IMG/VR virus record: IMGVR_UViG_3300050045_000004
Location: 1 to 36,374 of that record
Source of the DNA: a virus
DNA length: 36,374 bases
Reading direction: 5' to 3' (one strand)
Shown here: in pieces, positions 1,300 through 36,374 of the stretch
How the letters are laid out: each line of letters opens with the position of its first letter
Numbering within the stretch: the first letter of the stretch is position 1
The notes under the pieces: model-generated
The model's database searches: none
What the model was told of the DNA's origin: nothing
What the model saw: the letters and a program-made list of their open reading frames with translations, nothing else
Position numbers and translations under genes: made by a program

Positions 1300-1522
1300 A
1301 GTGGCATTGCTTTTTCTGGTTGATACCGACAACCCATTCGAGGCTGCAACGATTTGGTGCAACGTGTCGGTTGAAATAAGTCTGCGCGGCTCGTTTGGCA
1401 TCATCGAGGGTGCCTCCAATTTCGTCGATCTTAAAAAACGCATCCTCGCCGGGCGCGTTGTGCGTGTGCTCCCAACGGCCTTCGATCAGGTAGTAGCCGC
1501 GATTATCTGTGGTTGACAACAT
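1259..1522 (-). CDS. Small hypothetical protein of the sugar cluster
   Basis: An 87-residue protein, not recognised. It contains aromatic and charged stretches (GYYLIEGRWEHTHN, HYAHDPDITLR) and no membrane segment or signal peptide. It starts 20 nt inside the end of the fucose-synthase-like gene and ends 40 nt inside the next gene, the tight overlap style of the whole cluster. A weak GGGA stretch lies about 7 nt before the ATG. It could be a small partner of the neighbouring enzymes, but nothing in the sequence proves this. Confidence 0.6.
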   Translation of the reverse strand: MLSTTDNRGYYLIEGRWEHTHNAPGEDAFFKIDEIGGTLDDAKRAAQTYFNRHVAPNRCSLEWVVGINQKKQCHYAHDPDITLRITR

Positions 1523-2420
1523 ACCAGTCCCACGTTTCTTTCAAGCCTTGTTCAAGCGAGTATACCGGGCGAAAGCCGGTCGCGTCCAGTAAGGAAAGAT
1601 CGGCGGCGCGGTAGATTTGGCCGTTCGGTTTGGTCCCGTCCCATTTGATGTCCGTGACCCCGGTGATCTTGGAGAGTGTATCGACGACTTGCCGGATTGA
1701 GTAGACCGTCCCATCGCCGACGTTGATCGCGCCATGAACTGACTCCATCACAGTGAGCGAGAGGCGCGCCAAATCCTTGACGTACAGGAAATTGCGCCGC
1801 GCCGAACCATCGCCCCAAACAGTGACGGGGGCACCGTGAAGCCAAGCGTAATGGAATTTGCGAATGAGCGACGGCACGACATGCCCATTAACCGGGTCAA
1901 ACTTGTCGCGCGCCCCGTACAGATTGCATGATACGATGTAGGCCCAAGGGAGACTGTAGCTTTGCTCATAGGCTTCGAGCATCGCGAGCATCCCGCGCTT
2001 GGCGTGAGCGTAACCGCTCTCAGACGAGTGCGGGCGGCCGTCGAAGATGTCACGCTCGTTGAACGGAAGCTTCGGCGGGAACGGGTAGACCGCATTGGTG
2101 CCCATGACGGTGATCTTCTCGGCTTTGCACTCTTTCGCCGCGTCGATGACGTTGCAATTGATCCGCGTGTTGACGAGAAACGACTTGCCCTGATTGTTCA
2201 TATTGCCCATGATACCGAATACGCACGCGGCGGCATGAAAGATATGCTTCGGTCGAATGCCCATGAACAAGTCGTGAGTACGAGTGCCATTCGTCAGGTC
2301 GCAGTCCTCATGATAAAGCGGGACGACGTTGGCGAAGCCTTCCGTTGTGAGGTGTTCAACGACGGCGGTGCCGACGAGTCCGCCAGCGCCAGTGACGAGG
2401 ATCGTGTCATCCTTGTTCAT
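1503..2420 (-). CDS. GDP-L-fucose synthase-like SDR reductase (Fcl family)
   Basis: A 305-residue extended short-chain dehydrogenase, matching Fcl/WcaG in length and along its whole course. The NADP-binding motif GAGGLVG is at residues 11-17, the catalytic Y137-x3-K141 is in YAHAK, and conserved family segments are NLYGARDKF, H180 in GHVVPSLIRKFH, VWGDGSARRNFLYVKDLA and INVGDGTVYSI. Fcl converts GDP-4-keto-6-deoxymannose, the product of the nearby dehydratase, to GDP-L-fucose by 3,5-epimerisation and 4-reduction. Aligned by eye to E. coli Fcl, Ser107 becomes Thr108 and the epimerisation residue Cys109 becomes Ala110 (GTNAVYP instead of GSSCIYP). The enzyme may therefore reduce without epimerising. 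It overlaps the upstream glycosyltransferase gene by an ATGA. Confidence 0.9.
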   Translation of the reverse strand: MNKDDTILVTGAGGLVGTAVVEHLTTEGFANVVPLYHEDCDLTNGTRTHDLFMGIRPKHIFHAAACVFGIMGNMNNQGKSFLVNTRINCNVIDAAKECKAEKITVMGTNAVYPFPPKLPFNERDIFDGRPHSSESGYAHAKRGMLAMLEAYEQSYSLPWAYIVSCNLYGARDKFDPVNGHVVPSLIRKFHYAWLHGAPVTVWGDGSARRNFLYVKDLARLSLTVMESVHGAINVGDGTVYSIRQVVDTLSKITGVTDIKWDGTKPNGQIYRAADLSLLDATGFRPVYSLEQGLKETWDWYVVNHR

Positions 2421-4053: not shown

Positions 4054-4208
4054 TTCTGTACCTCTACCAGTGCTTCGCAAATTGCTTGTTGCAGTCGGTC
4101 GGCGCGCTGACGCGGCAGGATAATCTCGCCGTTCGCACCCCGGTAGTCGGCCAAGAGGGTGCGCGCGATGTCCGCTTCCTTCGCGTGAACTTTATCAAGT
4201 GTTGCCAT
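4050..4208 (-). CDS. Small 52-residue ORF between dehydratase and glycosyltransferase
   Basis: A short reading frame, [13 protein letters not shown] through [10 protein letters not shown], starting at the ATG at 4208 inside the last codons of the GDP-mannose dehydratase gene. It ends in an ATGA-type overlap with the next gene, the same junction seen throughout the cluster. It fills exactly the only gap between two otherwise overlapping genes. The protein is predicted helical and amphipathic ([15 protein letters not shown]). The Shine-Dalgarno (GAGTG) is weak. Function unknown; it may mainly couple translation. Confidence 0.55.
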
Positions 4209-5205
4209 TCAGGTCACTCGCTACCATTTCCCGGACCAGTTCTTTGAAGCCGACTTTATGATGCCATCCAAGCTTGCGTGCCTTGGTCGGGTCGCCCAAC
4301 AGCTTATCAACTTCCGTAGGCCGAAAGTAGCGGGGATCGACGCGGACCAAGCCATTACCTTGCCACATCCCGCGCTCCTCTATGCCGCTCCCGGACCATG
4401 TGATCGGGATACCGACTTCTGCGAAGGCCAACTCGACAAACTCCCGCACGGTATGGGTCTCGCCGGTTGCGAAAACGTAATCGCCCGGCTTGGGCTGTTG
4501 CAGGAGAAGCCACATCCCTTCGACATAATCCCGAGCGTGACCCCAATCGCGCAAGGCGTCAAGATTGCCGAGGGATAGGAAGTCTTGCTCGCCCTTCGAT
4601 ATTGCGGCGACCGCCCGCGTGATCTTGCGCGTCACGAACGTCTCGCCGCGTCGCGGGGACTCATGGTTGAACAGAATGCCGTTCGAGGCGTGCATCCCGT
4701 AGGCTTCGCGGTAGTTGACGGTGATCCAGTGAGCGTAAAGCTTGGCCGCGCCGTAGGGGCTGCGCGGCCAGAACGGCGTCGTCTCGGATTGCGGCGCTGG
4801 GGCGTTACCATACATCTCGGAAGTCGAAGCCTGATAGAAACGAGGTTCATATTCAAAACCCCGCACCATTTTCAAGCCCTCAAGCATCCGCAGCGTGCCG
4901 AGGGCGTCCGCGTTGGCGGTGTACTCGGGTGTCTCGAAACTGACGTGGACGTGGCTCTGCGCGGCCAAATTATACACTTCGTTCGGAGCCACTTCATCCA
5001 GAATGCGGATGATGTTGGTGGAGTCGGTTAGATCGCCGAAGTGCAAGTGGAAATTCTCATGTCTGATAAGGTGAGTGATGCGTCCGGTATTAAAGGACGA
5101 TGACCGGCGCTTGATGCCGTGAACGTCATAGCCCTTCTCCAATAGAAATTCGGCGAGGTACGAACCATCTTGTCCTGTCACTCCCGTTATCAATGCAGTG
5201 CTCAT
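4195..5205 (-). CDS. gmd: GDP-mannose 4,6-dehydratase
   Basis: A 336-residue enzyme converting GDP-D-mannose to GDP-4-keto-6-deoxy-D-mannose, the first committed step to GDP-fucose, GDP-rhamnose and related sugars. All family landmarks are present: GVTGQDG (residues 8-14) for NADP binding, [14 protein letters not shown], the catalytic Thr/Ser-Glu segment STSEMYG (127-133), Y151-x3-K155, and [16 protein letters not shown]. It is slightly shorter than typical bacterial Gmd (about 345-370) but ends in the conserved region ([15 protein letters not shown]). The start is fixed by the ATGA overlap with the upstream gene. It supplies substrate to the Fcl-like reductase at 1503-2420. Confidence 0.97.
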
Positions 5206-6186: not shown

Positions 6187-7251
6187 TCAAGCCCTAACGG
6201 GCGGCCTACGCTGCGCCAATAGAGACGGATGCCCCACGCGTACCTGCGGCGCTGTACGGGGCGCTGGACCCCGCCGTGAGGGCGGCGGATAGATGGCCGG
6301 GGCGAAGATTTCACTGACCGGGCGGCTTTCAGCGGTTGCTGAAAGCCCTAGGAATTCGGCGACTCGCTGCCGGGCGACAGGCATATCGAGCGTCTTGGCG
6401 CACATCTTCGTGCAAGCCGACGTGGCGCAGATGCACGGATTGATCGGGTCGATGCCGAGATACGGCGCGAACTTCGCACCGTCCGCGTGCCATGACGACG
6501 GCTCGAAGCCGCCTTGGATCGAGATTGTCGGCACTCGCACCGCCGGTCCGAGGATCGCCGGGAAGCCGCTGGATGTGAACACGACTGCCGCTCGCGAGAA
6601 CAGCGCCGCCATCGTCTCGAATGAAAGCTCGCCGTGATTGAGCGACACGTCGGGGATCAATTGCGGGCCGACGATCCACTCGCGGTTCGCTTCAAGGTCC
6701 GCAACTGACACAACGAAGAAGCTATCCCGTACCATAGTTATCAATTCTGCATACTGGTCAGGGTTCGCGTTGCGGAGACCGCTGCCACGCCACTCCGGCC
6801 GCATGACCAGTGGCCGATAGATCATGAGCGGCTTCGGGGTGACCGGCGGTTGCCCGATCTTGTTGGTGAGCGCATCATCCCATTCCCACGGGATCGGCAG
6901 AGTGTAGTCCGCGTCCGCGTAGTCGCCGCCGATACCAGCGGCGGTGAACATCGCTTGCAGGATCGTGCCTGAGCCGACACTCGACCGATTGTACGAGATT
7001 TGGATTGCGTTGTTGGTATGATGCGACGGCGGAGTCGGCGCGAACTTGGCCGCTTCGCGCGCTGCGTTCTTCAATTGCGTGCGCAGTGCCACCGGCTTGC
7101 GGATGAAACGAACGGGAAGATCGTGATAGACACACGGCCACGATGTCTCAAGCGCGATACTGTATTCGCGCTTGAGCAATGCCCGGATGACCGCACGTTG
7201 GTGGATGTTGTCACCGAGGCCGTGCATCCCGTGAATGAGAAGTGATTGCAC
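6187..7251 (-). CDS. Heptosyltransferase-like glycosyltransferase (GT9-like)
   Basis: A 354-residue protein initiated at a GTG at 7251, two bases after the preceding gene stops. The N-terminus LLIHGMHGLGDNIHQRAVIRALL matches the first strand and glycine loop of ADP-heptose:LPS heptosyltransferase-like (GT9, GT-B fold) proteins. The C-terminal half has the donor-domain pattern ELSFETMAALFSRAAVVFTSSGFPAILGPAVRVPTISIQGG, where such enzymes bind the nucleotide. A Cys-rich segment (NPCICATSACTKMC) near residue 275 is unusual. The last 45 residues are Pro/Arg-rich and probably disordered. Donor and acceptor are unknown. Confidence 0.7.
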   Translation of the reverse strand: MQSLLIHGMHGLGDNIHQRAVIRALLKREYSIALETSWPCVYHDLPVRFIRKPVALRTQLKNAAREAAKFAPTPPSHHTNNAIQISYNRSSVGSGTILQAMFTAAGIGGDYADADYTLPIPWEWDDALTNKIGQPPVTPKPLMIYRPLVMRPEWRGSGLRNANPDQYAELITMVRDSFFVVSVADLEANREWIVGPQLIPDVSLNHGELSFETMAALFSRAAVVFTSSGFPAILGPAVRVPTISIQGGFEPSSWHADGAKFAPYLGIDPINPCICATSACTKMCAKTLDMPVARQRVAEFLGLSATAESRPVSEIFAPAIYPPPSRRGPAPRTAPQVRVGHPSLLAQRRPPVRA

Positions 7252-23606: not shown

Positions 23607-24152
23607 TTAGCCGCCGCTTGGAAGATTGATGCCCACGTACTCGTTCTGGATTAGCGGGTAAGTGAACGTAATCGAAATTCCAGCTTGGCCTTTCATCGTT
23701 CGGTTGCGAGCGTAGTCCGTGACACAGCCGTCGTACACAATGTTGCCAGTGCTGCCGACGATCTTCTGCAACTCTGTATCTGGTAGCACCGCTGCCAAAA
23801 TCGCGAGTCGCGCCGTGTTCAAGTCCGCTCCGCCGTTCTTGTTTGTGATACCCCGCGTATCGAGGACCACGTAAATCTCTGGCGTCATCTTCATAACGCT
23901 TGACGGGACCGCCCTTTCCATCAAGCCCCGCGCCGGTAACTGAGTGCGCGGGTCCTTAAGTTCGTCGGCGTCGAGAATGATAATCCCCGGCACCTTTTCC
24001 GCAGGAAGCTCGTTCCGATTTTGAACGATGTTTCCCGGGACAATCGAGATTGGCCCTTCGGGGCCGCCTGCAAGCGGAATAGTCAGTCCACCGAGCAGGG
24101 TATAAAGGCGGTTCAAAACAAGCTGCCGCCGGTCGTTTACCGTAAAGGCCAT
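23607..24152 (-). CDS. Tail terminator/completion protein
   Basis: A 181-residue protein from the ATG at 24152 (MAFTVNDRRQLVLNRLYTLL); the open frame above it lacks a ribosome site. A start helix with RxxxxNRLYxLL, a central PGIIILDADEL, then MTPEIYVVLDTRG and a C-terminal beta pair (ISITFTYPLIQNEYVG) fit tail terminator-like proteins that cap the tail tube. It lies just before the tail tube gene, as expected. It is the first minus-strand gene after the plus-strand insertion. Confidence 0.6.
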   Translation of the reverse strand: MAFTVNDRRQLVLNRLYTLLGGLTIPLAGGPEGPISIVPGNIVQNRNELPAEKVPGIIILDADELKDPRTQLPARGLMERAVPSSVMKMTPEIYVVLDTRGITNKNGGADLNTARLAILAAVLPDTELQKIVGSTGNIVYDGCVTDYARNRTMKGQAGISITFTYPLIQNEYVGINLPSGG

Positions 24153-24232
24153 TGGGGGACGCTCTAGCCCTAATCCTCCCCATGGAGGAGCGACCCCATT
24201 AACCATACTAGAGAGGAAAAGGCAAGCGGGGA

Positions 24233-24260
24233 TTGACAGCGGGGCCGAAACCAGTAGAAG
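24233..24260 (+). promoter_or_regulatory. Sigma70-like promoter for the plus-strand gene pair
   Basis: A perfect -35 TTGACA (24233-24238), a 16-nt spacer and a -10 TAGAAG (24255-24260; four of six match TATAAT). The ATG of the first plus-strand gene is 52 nt further on. This gives the only oppositely oriented genes of the window their own host-type promoter, independent of the late minus-strand transcript. Confidence 0.5.
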
Positions 24261-24311
24261 TAGCTACTTACGCCGCATTTCTGGCCCCTTTAGATACTCC
24301 CGGAGTCCCCC

Positions 24312-24791
24312 ATGAGTGCCGTCGAGAAAATCCATGAGCAACCGTTGACGCCGCGTGATCTTGCGTTGCAACTTTTTGGCGACGCCGTAGACCGTAATGA
24401 TGGCGACGCCGCCGAAGCGGCGCAATCCGAATGGCTCAAAGCCATGAAGGGTCGCCGTCGCGGTCTAATTGACGCGGCACTGATCGAGCTTTTTGCTTTC
24501 TATATTGACGGCAAGAAGCCGCAGACTTCAAAGAAGTTGAAACCAATGCCCCACGGTGACGCTGCCGAGAATGAAATGAAACGGCACACTAAAGCAATGC
24601 GCCGCCTTGCGTTAGAGCAACAAGCCGAAGCGATATTTGAGAAGGAAGTTGTATTGCGCATAACGACGAAATGTACGCTCAATGATCTATGGAAACTCGG
24701 CAACAAATTCGGCAAACGTGGCGACAAACGTCATGTTGTTGATGTTTATTCGGAGAGCCAACTTGCGAAAGCCCGTATCAAAGCTGACTAA
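24312..24791 (+). CDS. Hypothetical protein on the opposite strand (moron-like)
   Basis: A 159-residue protein, not recognised. It looks fully helical. The N-terminal half (LTPRDLALQLFGDAVDRNDGD, then a WLKAMKGRRRG segment) is followed by a Lys/Arg-rich linker (KKPQTSKKLKP) and a charged C-terminus. The Shine-Dalgarno GGAG is separated from the ATG by TCCCCC. Opposite orientation, own promoter and insertion between conserved head-tail genes mark it as a moron, an extra gene expressed separately from the late operon. It could be nucleic-acid binding, but that is a guess from charge. Confidence 0.7.
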   Translation: MSAVEKIHEQPLTPRDLALQLFGDAVDRNDGDAAEAAQSEWLKAMKGRRRGLIDAALIELFAFYIDGKKPQTSKKLKPMPHGDAAENEMKRHTKAMRRLALEQQAEAIFEKEVVLRITTKCTLNDLWKLGNKFGKRGDKRHVVDVYSESQLAKARIKAD

Positions 24792-25347
24792 AGAGGCCCG
24801 GGCACGCAATCTCTCGCCGTCTATAGTTCGGAACAGAATTCGCTCAGGATGGAGTAAAGAAAGGGCGTTATCAACGCCCAATTTTGGCTTTTGGTATCCC
24901 CGCAAAGGGACTGTCTCGGAAGCCGCTCGGGCAGTCGGTCTCAAACCGACCGTAGTCCTTCAACGAATACGGCGCGGACAAAAACTTACACAGAGTTTAT
25001 ACCCGCTTCACCTAAACTCGCATCAAATTATTCAAAAGTTAATCGGCGTAAAATGTCGAAAACTCGATATTTCTCCCGCTCTATTTTGGCTTCGAGTTAA
25101 GAAAGGGGCGTCAGTAGAGGGCGCTCTAGTCCCGCGAAAAACTCGCCGCTCTTACCGGCATCTTCCCCGCGCTCCGGGACTTTCAATGTCCGGCGTTTAT
25201 AAACGACTCGCCGCCGGATGGTCCTTAGCTAAAGCGATGTCTACCCCGCCAGCACCTAAAGGGTGGGGGCGCGTTTATTTACGCTACTCGGATATAGCCA
25301 TACCGCAGAAAGCGTCGCATCGTTACAATCACATCGTTACAATTTGA
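24763..25347 (+). CDS. Protein of four tandem helix-turn-helix-like repeats
   Basis: A protein of 194 residues if it starts at the TTG at 24763, which has GGAGAG five bases before it; the frame is open back to an ATG at 24682. It overlaps the previous gene's end. Four repeats of about 35-45 residues follow the pattern A-x3-GL-S-x2-VxxRIxxGWSxxxALSTP: NLSPSIVRNRIRSGWSKERAL, VGLKPTVVLQRIRRGQKLTQSL, LDISPALFWLRVKKGASVEGAL and PGLSMSGVYKRLAAGWSLAKAM. This resembles the small DNA-binding repeats (NUMOD/IENR-like) attached to phage homing endonucleases, but no HNH or GIY-YIG nuclease is present. The DNA is more AT-rich than its surroundings. Confidence 0.65.
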   Translation: MRKPVSKLTKEARARNLSPSIVRNRIRSGWSKERALSTPNFGFWYPRKGTVSEAARAVGLKPTVVLQRIRRGQKLTQSLYPLHLNSHQIIQKLIGVKCRKLDISPALFWLRVKKGASVEGALVPRKTRRSYRHLPRAPGLSMSGVYKRLAAGWSLAKAMSTPPAPKGWGRVYLRYSDIAIPQKASHRYNHIVTI

Positions 25348-25765
25348 CGTTTGTCTGGTAGAGCACGATAATCCCGCCCGGCGAGTACAGCTTAAGCGGT
25401 TGCGTGAATGACAGGATTTCGTTGATAACCGGGGGGTTTGCGGGAGGCTGGACGTAGGTCACCAACTGTTCGTTTTGCCAATCCGGAGCCAAGCCGGGGA
25501 TACTGTCAAGCCCGGCCGCGAACAGGATCGTCCGCTCGGTGGGGTTCGCGAGTTGGGTTTGGGCATCCCGTGGCATGTAATCGGAGACCACCACGGTGCA
25601 CGCTCGAAGCGCGCCTGTCTCATTGTTCCGGAGAGCCGCCATCATACCGTAGTCAGTGATTAGCTGGTCCGCGACCGCGAGCATCTCAGCATAGAATTCT
25701 TGACCGACCGCGATGTTACCGAGGCCCCCTGATCCACTGCCGCCGCTGTACTTTGCGAGTCCCAT
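25337..25765 (-). CDS. Head-tail connector-like protein
   Basis: A 142-residue protein. ADQLITDYGMMAALRNNETG, then VVVSDYMPRD, PTERTILFAAGL and YSPGGIIVLYQTNVKL match a conserved small neck protein found between head-completion and tail-terminator genes of alphaproteobacterial siphophages. It starts behind AAGGATCAGG. Its end overlaps by 11 bp, tail to tail, with the plus-strand repeat-protein gene, so the two transcripts collide here. Confidence 0.6.
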   Translation of the reverse strand: MGLAKYSGGSGSGGLGNIAVGQEFYAEMLAVADQLITDYGMMAALRNNETGALRACTVVVSDYMPRDAQTQLANPTERTILFAAGLDSIPGLAPDWQNEQLVTYVQPPANPPVINEILSFTQPLKLYSPGGIIVLYQTNVKL

Positions 25766-35867: not shown

Positions 35868-36374
35868 TTAATAACCAATTGCGTGCCAGTATATATTGTT
35901 CGATGCTCCTGACAATGCCTTAAATCCACTTGTTGTGACACTTTGAGGAGAGACGATAGCCGTTACGTTGGAGTACGAACTTGCGGTAACGCCAAAACAA
36001 GCATTCGGAAACGCTATTGGAAATGTGATAGAGACGCCCGCACTGCTGGCTGTAGCAGTCCCCCACTGGACGATGACACCCGTGGTGCCATTTTTCAGAT
36101 AGCCGTTCGTACTAAGCGAAGCCGTATCGGCAGTACCCGGGCCAGCAGGTCCCTGTATACCTTGTGGCCCTTGGGCACCAGCCGCACCAGCCGCACCAGC
36201 CGCACCAGCCGCACCAGCCGCACCGACTGCGCCCGTTGCGCCCGCTGCGCCGCTCGCGCCGGTCGGTCCGGTTGCACCCGTTGCGCCTGTCGGTCCCGTT
36301 GCGCCTGTCGGTCCCGTTGCACCCGTTGGGCCGCCGCTCGGTCCGGTTGCGCCCGTTGTGCCGATTGATCCCGT
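35868..36374 (-). CDS. Collagen-like tail fibre, C-terminal part (5' end outside)
   Basis: 168 residues up to the stop at 35868; the gene enters from beyond 36374, so no start is visible. Residues 1-80 are Gly-x-y triplets (GAT GPT GAT type, then five GAA in a row, then [15 protein letters not shown]), a collagen-like triple helix with one phase break near residue 16. Residues 85-168 ([41 protein letters not shown]) match the gp53-like receptor-binding tip common at fibre ends. The fibre would be a trimer used to bind the host surface. Thr in ACG, ACC and ACA codons is abundant. Confidence 0.85.
36175..36224. repeat. 9-bp tandem repeat in the fibre gene
   Basis: Five perfect copies of GCACCAGCC (plus strand) and a partial sixth, coding GAA repeats in the collagen-like part. 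Perfect DNA identity, unlike the varied codons nearby, marks a recent expansion prone to slippage. Confidence 0.85.

Follow-up and report, generated by a model that had tools for sequence, protein, structure and literature searches.

A nuclease-free array of predicted helix-turn-helix repeats in a two-gene cassette inserted between phage structural genes

Described relatives of the repeat array

In T4-like phages, free-standing homing endonucleases are found in the spacers that separate conserved genes, and they can also act in trans to mobilise partners that are defective (PMC2988022). The gene described here lies in a virus record of 36,374 bases, which was taken whole (hereafter the window) and may be a fragment of the viral genome. 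Like free-standing homing endonuclease genes, it is inserted between conserved genes and absent in close relatives, but its protein lacks the catalytic domain of the free-standing HNH and GIY-YIG enzymes. Its repeats are of the same family as those of phage HNH homing endonucleases (phrog_3377/phrog_374), which combine an HNH domain with one or two repeats, whereas in the window protein four repeats occur with no nuclease. One such HNH gene, in a sister phage (L007:1127-1750), resembles the window cassette: it too is inserted between structural genes on the opposite strand, at a site that is empty in a close relative.

Stand-alone arrays are already known as sequences, in phrog_1065. The proteins of that family have, like the window array, several repeats of the family in a row and no nuclease; unlike the window cassette, their genes are ordinary phage genes among early and replication genes. 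The examples that we examined have no partner gene of the kind described below (ORF A) alongside and carry three repeats, against four in the window and seven in a related phage, G013. No function for stand-alone arrays was described in the material searched.

TALE-type arrays are built of near-identical units in tandem, each of 30-odd residues and variable mainly at the positions that read the bases. The G013 array is similar in that its repeats vary mainly in the recognition helix. In contrast to the superhelical hairpins of TALEs, the units are predicted helix-turn-helix (HTH) modules, few in number and with no known code, and we claim no sequence relationship.

A parallel in mode of action is CapR, a transcriptional repressor encoded by the Vibrio cholerae PLE satellite and related to the DNA-binding domains of phage T5orf172 homing enzymes; modular repeats and recombination between them are described for CapR-related homing enzymes (PMC10448857). 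CapR too corresponds to the DNA-binding part of a homing-endonuclease family without the nuclease, encoded by a mobile element. However, CapR belongs to the zinc fingers and carries a CxxC...CxC motif (PMC10448857), whereas the window protein is a predicted HTH protein with a single cysteine and without this motif.

The array gene and its repeat family

The array gene and the elements within it are the following.

24763-25347, plus strand: array gene, 194 aa, TTG start, four predicted HTH repeats, no nuclease
24752-24757, plus strand: Shine-Dalgarno-like GGAGAG before the TTG start, read from the sequence
24781-24879, plus strand: repeat 1, residues 7-39, predicted recognition helix at about residues 18-28
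24910-25008, plus strand: repeat 2, from repeat scoring, HMM and AlphaFold2, with a sub-threshold Pfam HTH_AsnC-type match (E = 0.0014)
25039-25137, plus strand: repeat 3, from repeat scoring, HMM and AlphaFold2
25150-25248, plus strand: repeat 4, from repeat scoring, HMM and AlphaFold2

The reading frame is intact, and its last codons and stop lie inside the 3' end of a convergent structural gene (25337-25765). The TTG start is reasonable because it is preceded by GGAGAG, while no Shine-Dalgarno-like motif was read ahead of the in-frame ATG at 24682. The repeats are about 33 aa each, with spacings of 43, 43 and 37 aa. This four-repeat pattern is far beyond chance: the best four 25-residue windows reached a joint score of 206, against -75 +/- 43 for 100 shuffles, with a maximum of 23. 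A repeat HMM that left out the window and drew on 16 repeats from other phages recovered all four units, the whole reading frame scoring E = 8.8e-24. An earlier note on this DNA had described a TTG-initiated gene for four tandem HTH repeats without a nuclease and had proposed an HMM search; the location of the reading frame, the shuffles and the HMM bear out the gene and its four repeats. The consensus that it gave for the repeats fits repeat 1 best and repeat 4 loosely, whereas repeats 2 (GLKPTVVLQRIRRGQKLTQSLYP) and 3 (DISPALFWLRVKKGASVEGALVP) have clearly diverged from it.

AlphaFold2, run with a 6-row alignment, predicted one three-helix unit per repeat, four in all, with pLDDT of about 70-90 (helices 7-14, 19-27 and 32-37, then three further such units); packing between units was not confidently predicted (pTM 0.29). 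The HTH fold that had been proposed for the repeats is thus predicted, although Pfam HTH matches to the array were sub-threshold and Foldseek and VIA-align searches gave no significant structural match, PDB folds included. A comparison of the repeat profile with the PDB returned the designed toroid k-cTRP5, over a 15-residue stretch, and weak matches to HTH proteins such as AsnC, which were not used.

By profile comparison, the window repeats belong to the family found at the C terminus of phage HNH and GIY-YIG homing endonucleases, where it serves in DNA binding. The array matched phrog_3377 (HNH endonuclease) with E = 4e-10, only over the repeat half of that profile (positions 108-190 of 196). 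It also matched phrog_1065, a family of unknown function, in two stretches (E = 6e-10), and against the phrog_1065 profile it scored 4e-9 over positions 9-143 of 192, spanning several repeats. The kinship to homing-endonuclease repeats that the earlier note had pointed to thus finds support in phrog_3377 and in the independent HMM. None of the NUMOD/IENR Pfam profiles matched the window protein at E up to 1, nor did they match its relatives L118, L134, L164, L179, L123-L125, L153 and L007. A nuclease domain in or near the array frame, which would have made the gene a decayed homing gene, was sought: the insert's remaining open frames gave no family match and no nuclease trace in any frame, and HNH (phrog_374) and GIY-YIG profiles found nothing in the whole record.

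Carriers of the repeat motif fall into three architectures. An HNH domain is followed by one or more repeats in L124, L125, L153 and L157; a GIY-YIG domain is flanked by repeats on both sides in L123; and the arrays stand alone in L118 and L164, as well as in L134 and L179, whose reading frames start at the contig edge. The phrog_1065 profile covers nearly the whole length of the arrays of L118, L134 and L164. Most matches of the DNA-pattern scan were an unrelated phage protein (RRKGWSRPSALPTP) that carries the motif by chance. Stand-alone arrays also occur in Paenibacillus, Geobacillus, Acetoanaerobium and Pectobacterium phages. Two of them are annotated as 'HNH endonuclease' (NC_054985.1 and PP197248.1), and here the match is explained without any nuclease domain. 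Outside the recognition helices, two ortholog sets of stand-alone arrays, from Paenibacillus and Geobacillus phages, have pN/pS values of 0.23 and 0.14, and this purifying selection argues that stand-alone arrays are genes and not debris. Changes in these sets occur in particular helices and not in others, a pattern that is suggestive only, as substitutions are few and the third Geobacillus helix was missed by the motif used to locate the helices.

Peptide-pattern scans of viral and genome contigs found no close relatives of the array gene or of ORF A, and neither did tblastn against phages and plasmids. Among phages related to the window, G020 carries a three-repeat stand-alone array adjoining a helicase-like gene, with no ORF A beside it (L212:1477-1956, minus strand). 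A 184-aa reading frame of G013 (L214:11997-12551), near a DNA polymerase region, contains by eye one such unit (GMQYVTALNRARKGMSVADALAMPV).

The repeat family also circulates within mobile HNH genes of this phage group, as two sister phages indicate. The gene in L007, whose capsid protein is 92% identical to that of the window, encodes an HNH domain and, after it, two repeats from the array family, and L018 carries another HNH-plus-repeat gene.

L007:1127-1750, minus strand: HNH enzyme with two repeats, opposite-strand insertion upstream of the capsid gene

L006 does not have this gene, and its flanks are 98% identical on both sides (L007 1107|1807 against L006 4160|4337), which makes the two a clean filled and empty pair at this site.

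The two-gene insertion and its recurrence

The array gene is, from comparison with related phages, the second gene of a two-gene cassette inserted between nearly adjacent structural genes.

24208-25336: inserted cassette, outer bounds, between two structural genes, net gain about 1.10 kb
25337-25765, minus strand: flanking structural gene, intact, 77-85% identical in the closest relatives
23607-24152, minus strand: flanking structural gene, intact, 84-85% identical in the closest relatives
24312-24791, plus strand: ORF A, 159 aa, upstream of the array gene with a 29-nt overlap
24242-24289, plus strand: inverted repeat with an inner 12-nt palindrome (AAGTAGCTACTT), ahead of ORF A, read from the sequence

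The tail and capsid genes of the record are on the minus strand, and the cassette genes are on the opposite strand. We fetched 80 relatives by their major capsid protein, 44 of which have both genes that flank the cassette. The spacer between these genes is at most 101 nt in 43 of the 44 and 1,184 nt in the window. The remaining relative, L044, has a spacer of 415 nt at the same site, between homologues of the two flanking genes. The closest relatives (L004, L005 and L022, with flanking proteins 84-85% identical) have about 75-76 nt and L012-L015 have 16 nt. A 13-nt exact piece of the old spacer, as found in L004, L005 and L022, is kept at 24195-24207. The short spacers and the surviving piece together place a net insertion of about 1.10 kb within 24208-25336. 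The earlier note had missed both that the array gene is one half of a two-gene insertion with a partner and that the site is empty in relatives, points that follow from these alignments.

The insert has a GC content of 0.52 (24165-25334) against 0.58 for the whole record, and the difference is clearest at third codon positions of the array gene (0.46 versus 0.60-0.82). No target-site duplication was identified at the insertion in the window. At the array-side edge only, a 14-nt tandem near-duplicate (TCGCATCGTTACAA and TCACATCGTTACAA) lies at 25315-25342 and includes the end of the convergent gene. The inverted repeat ahead of ORF A is a possible, weak candidate for an operator; folded as a DNA hairpin it has z = -1.46, with 12 of 200 shuffles folding equally well.

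Elsewhere in the record, resemblance in sequence points to a GDP-mannose dehydratase-like gene (4195-5205, minus strand) and an NAD-epimerase-like gene (1503-2420, minus strand), with several glycosyltransferase-like genes nearby, and the phage might produce or attach a special sugar. A frame at 35870-36374 (minus strand), open at the end of the record, encodes collagen-like Gly-X-Y repeats and, after them, a C-terminal domain, and is likely to specify a tail-fibre tip.

ORF A is preceded by GGAG at 24302-24305 and has phage-like codon usage in its frame, and the array gene lies in one cassette with it, the two probably being translated jointly. Pfam, PHROGs, NCBIfam and PADLOC gave no family match for ORF A, and neither an HNH nor a GIY-YIG motif was found in it. 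A match to the P1 ParB profile was not significant (E = 0.15), and the structure model from the single sequence was unusable (pLDDT 53). A homologue was found in G013 (L204:1327-1842; E = 6.3e-11, 36% identity over residues 49-155), and the two proteins have in common the C-terminal block ITxxxTxxxLWxxxGxKxGKxGDKxxVVDxYxxxQLAKA. A scan with the alignment of the two sequences found no further members, and a scan of all viral contigs for the signature motif, with the window's own record excluded, returned G013 alone. Both members found belong to one phage group.

G013 is a record of 126.8 kb whose capsid protein is 80% identical to that of the window. There the ORF A homologue is followed, with a 4-nt overlap, by a gene for 357 aa with seven repeats and no nuclease (L204:1839-2912), so that the ORF A and array genes overlap in both known pairs (29 nt in the window). 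The G013 insertion is about 2.35 kb long and also contains an HNH_3 gene. In its place G016 has 53 nt, homology breaking at 4720|7453 and resuming at 7074|7507 (G013|G016), and it is absent from the same site in G009 and G008, which have 94 and 104 nt. This site, between a PAP2-family gene and the gene for an Enc34-type ssDNA-binding protein, is unrelated to that in the window. As judged from these comparisons, the ORF A and array pair has entered two related phages, at sites unrelated to each other.

The seven-repeat array gave a view of how the repeats differ. Among six similar G013 repeats, pN/pS was 0.88 in the recognition helix; for the scaffold, which showed many synonymous changes, it was 0.14. 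In the recognition-helix segment 10 of 11 columns varied, and of the 22 columns outside it 6 did (Fisher p = 0.0008, for a segment chosen after seeing the data); with helix limits taken from the structure model of the window protein (columns 13-21), p was 0.007. Two of the repeats (5 and 7) are near-identical duplicates that are not fully independent, and the effective number of repeats is therefore below six. The result is that of the sibling array, the window's own four repeats being too diverged for this comparison. Duplication followed by re-aiming of the DNA contacts would give such a pattern; relaxed constraint on the recognition helix would likewise fit a ratio near 0.9.

Interpretation of the cassette

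We found no description of an ORF A and array cassette, of the double empty-site evidence or of the helix pattern in a limited search of the open-access literature. The insertion as a two-gene cassette, its recurrence at a second site and the concentration of differences in the recognition helix are, within that search, new.

The combination of a missing cutter, a paired gene and unrelated insertion sites suggests a movable DNA-recognition module that probably has a job other than simple homing. Our preferred reading, to which we assign a probability of about 0.5, is that the window protein is a nuclease-free modular DNA-recognition array in a mobile two-gene cassette, which would act with ORF A, most likely by site occupancy as CapR does. 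Each HTH unit would present its own recognition helix, and the whole string of repeats would read one long specific DNA site. Occupancy of that site by the array and the ORF A protein would alter transcription or replication there, on DNA that could be the carrier's own, a rival phage's or a satellite's. The effect would be comparable to that of CapR, which without a nuclease represses the capsid operon of phage ICP1. We infer the DNA binding, the partnership of the two proteins and the effect of site occupancy.

The mobility of the cassette, seen from the empty sites in relatives of both the window and G013, would also suit a split homing element. In such an element ORF A would be a nuclease or recombination effector that has escaped recognition, targeted by the array as its subunit, and the two would move jointly. 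The order of the genes, ORF A and then the array, mirrors that of nuclease and repeats in the fused enzymes, and the overlap of the genes in both cases agrees with it. Mobility does not prove self-homing, though, given that defective partners can be mobilised in trans (PMC2988022), and the separate HNH gene in the G013 insertion could account for mobility there. ORF A itself matches no nuclease family and has no HNH or GIY-YIG motif, and we regard a split homing element as rather unlikely. The HNH gene that travels with the G013 copy fits as well with passive cargo of the 'moron' type, which either regulates only its own cassette or is merely tolerated, and which owes its movement to illegitimate recombination or to homing endonuclease genes nearby. 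The lower GC content, the position on the strand opposite the late genes and the inverted repeat ahead of ORF A are in line with this explanation, but it leaves unaccounted for the diversification of the recognition helices in G013 and the difference in repeat number between the cassettes (four versus seven), and we consider it unlikely.

Decay of a homing endonuclease, with loss of the nuclease domain and the array as what is left, seems very improbable, even though HNH enzymes, including those of sister phages, have the same repeat family. No frame of the insert retains a nuclease trace, the array frame is intact and has a ribosome-binding site, arrays of this family recur and are elsewhere under purifying selection, and G013 has a homologous pair of partner and array. 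A 'remnant of a homing enzyme', which the earlier note had listed, is therefore not retained as a main reading. A more far-reaching version of the preferred reading, which we put forward tentatively and hold to be possible, is that the pair is a previously undescribed two-component mobile module. It would consist of ORF A and an HTH array able to evolve by duplication of its units and divergence of their recognition helices, with the pair retargeted repeat by repeat to new DNA sites, a natural HTH counterpart of TALE arrays with no fused nuclease or with ORF A as the effector.

If the preferred reading is true, labels of 'HNH endonuclease' on such arrays, as in NC_054985.1 and PP197248.1, would be wrong and call for caution. 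Such arrays might be a source of small modular DNA-binding domains. Their near-identical units, which differ mainly in the recognition helix, would offer a testable system for the re-aiming of recognition modules. For the phages themselves, it would mean that the targeting part of homing enzymes has been released from them more than once and made, together with a partner, into a movable and modular device for DNA recognition.
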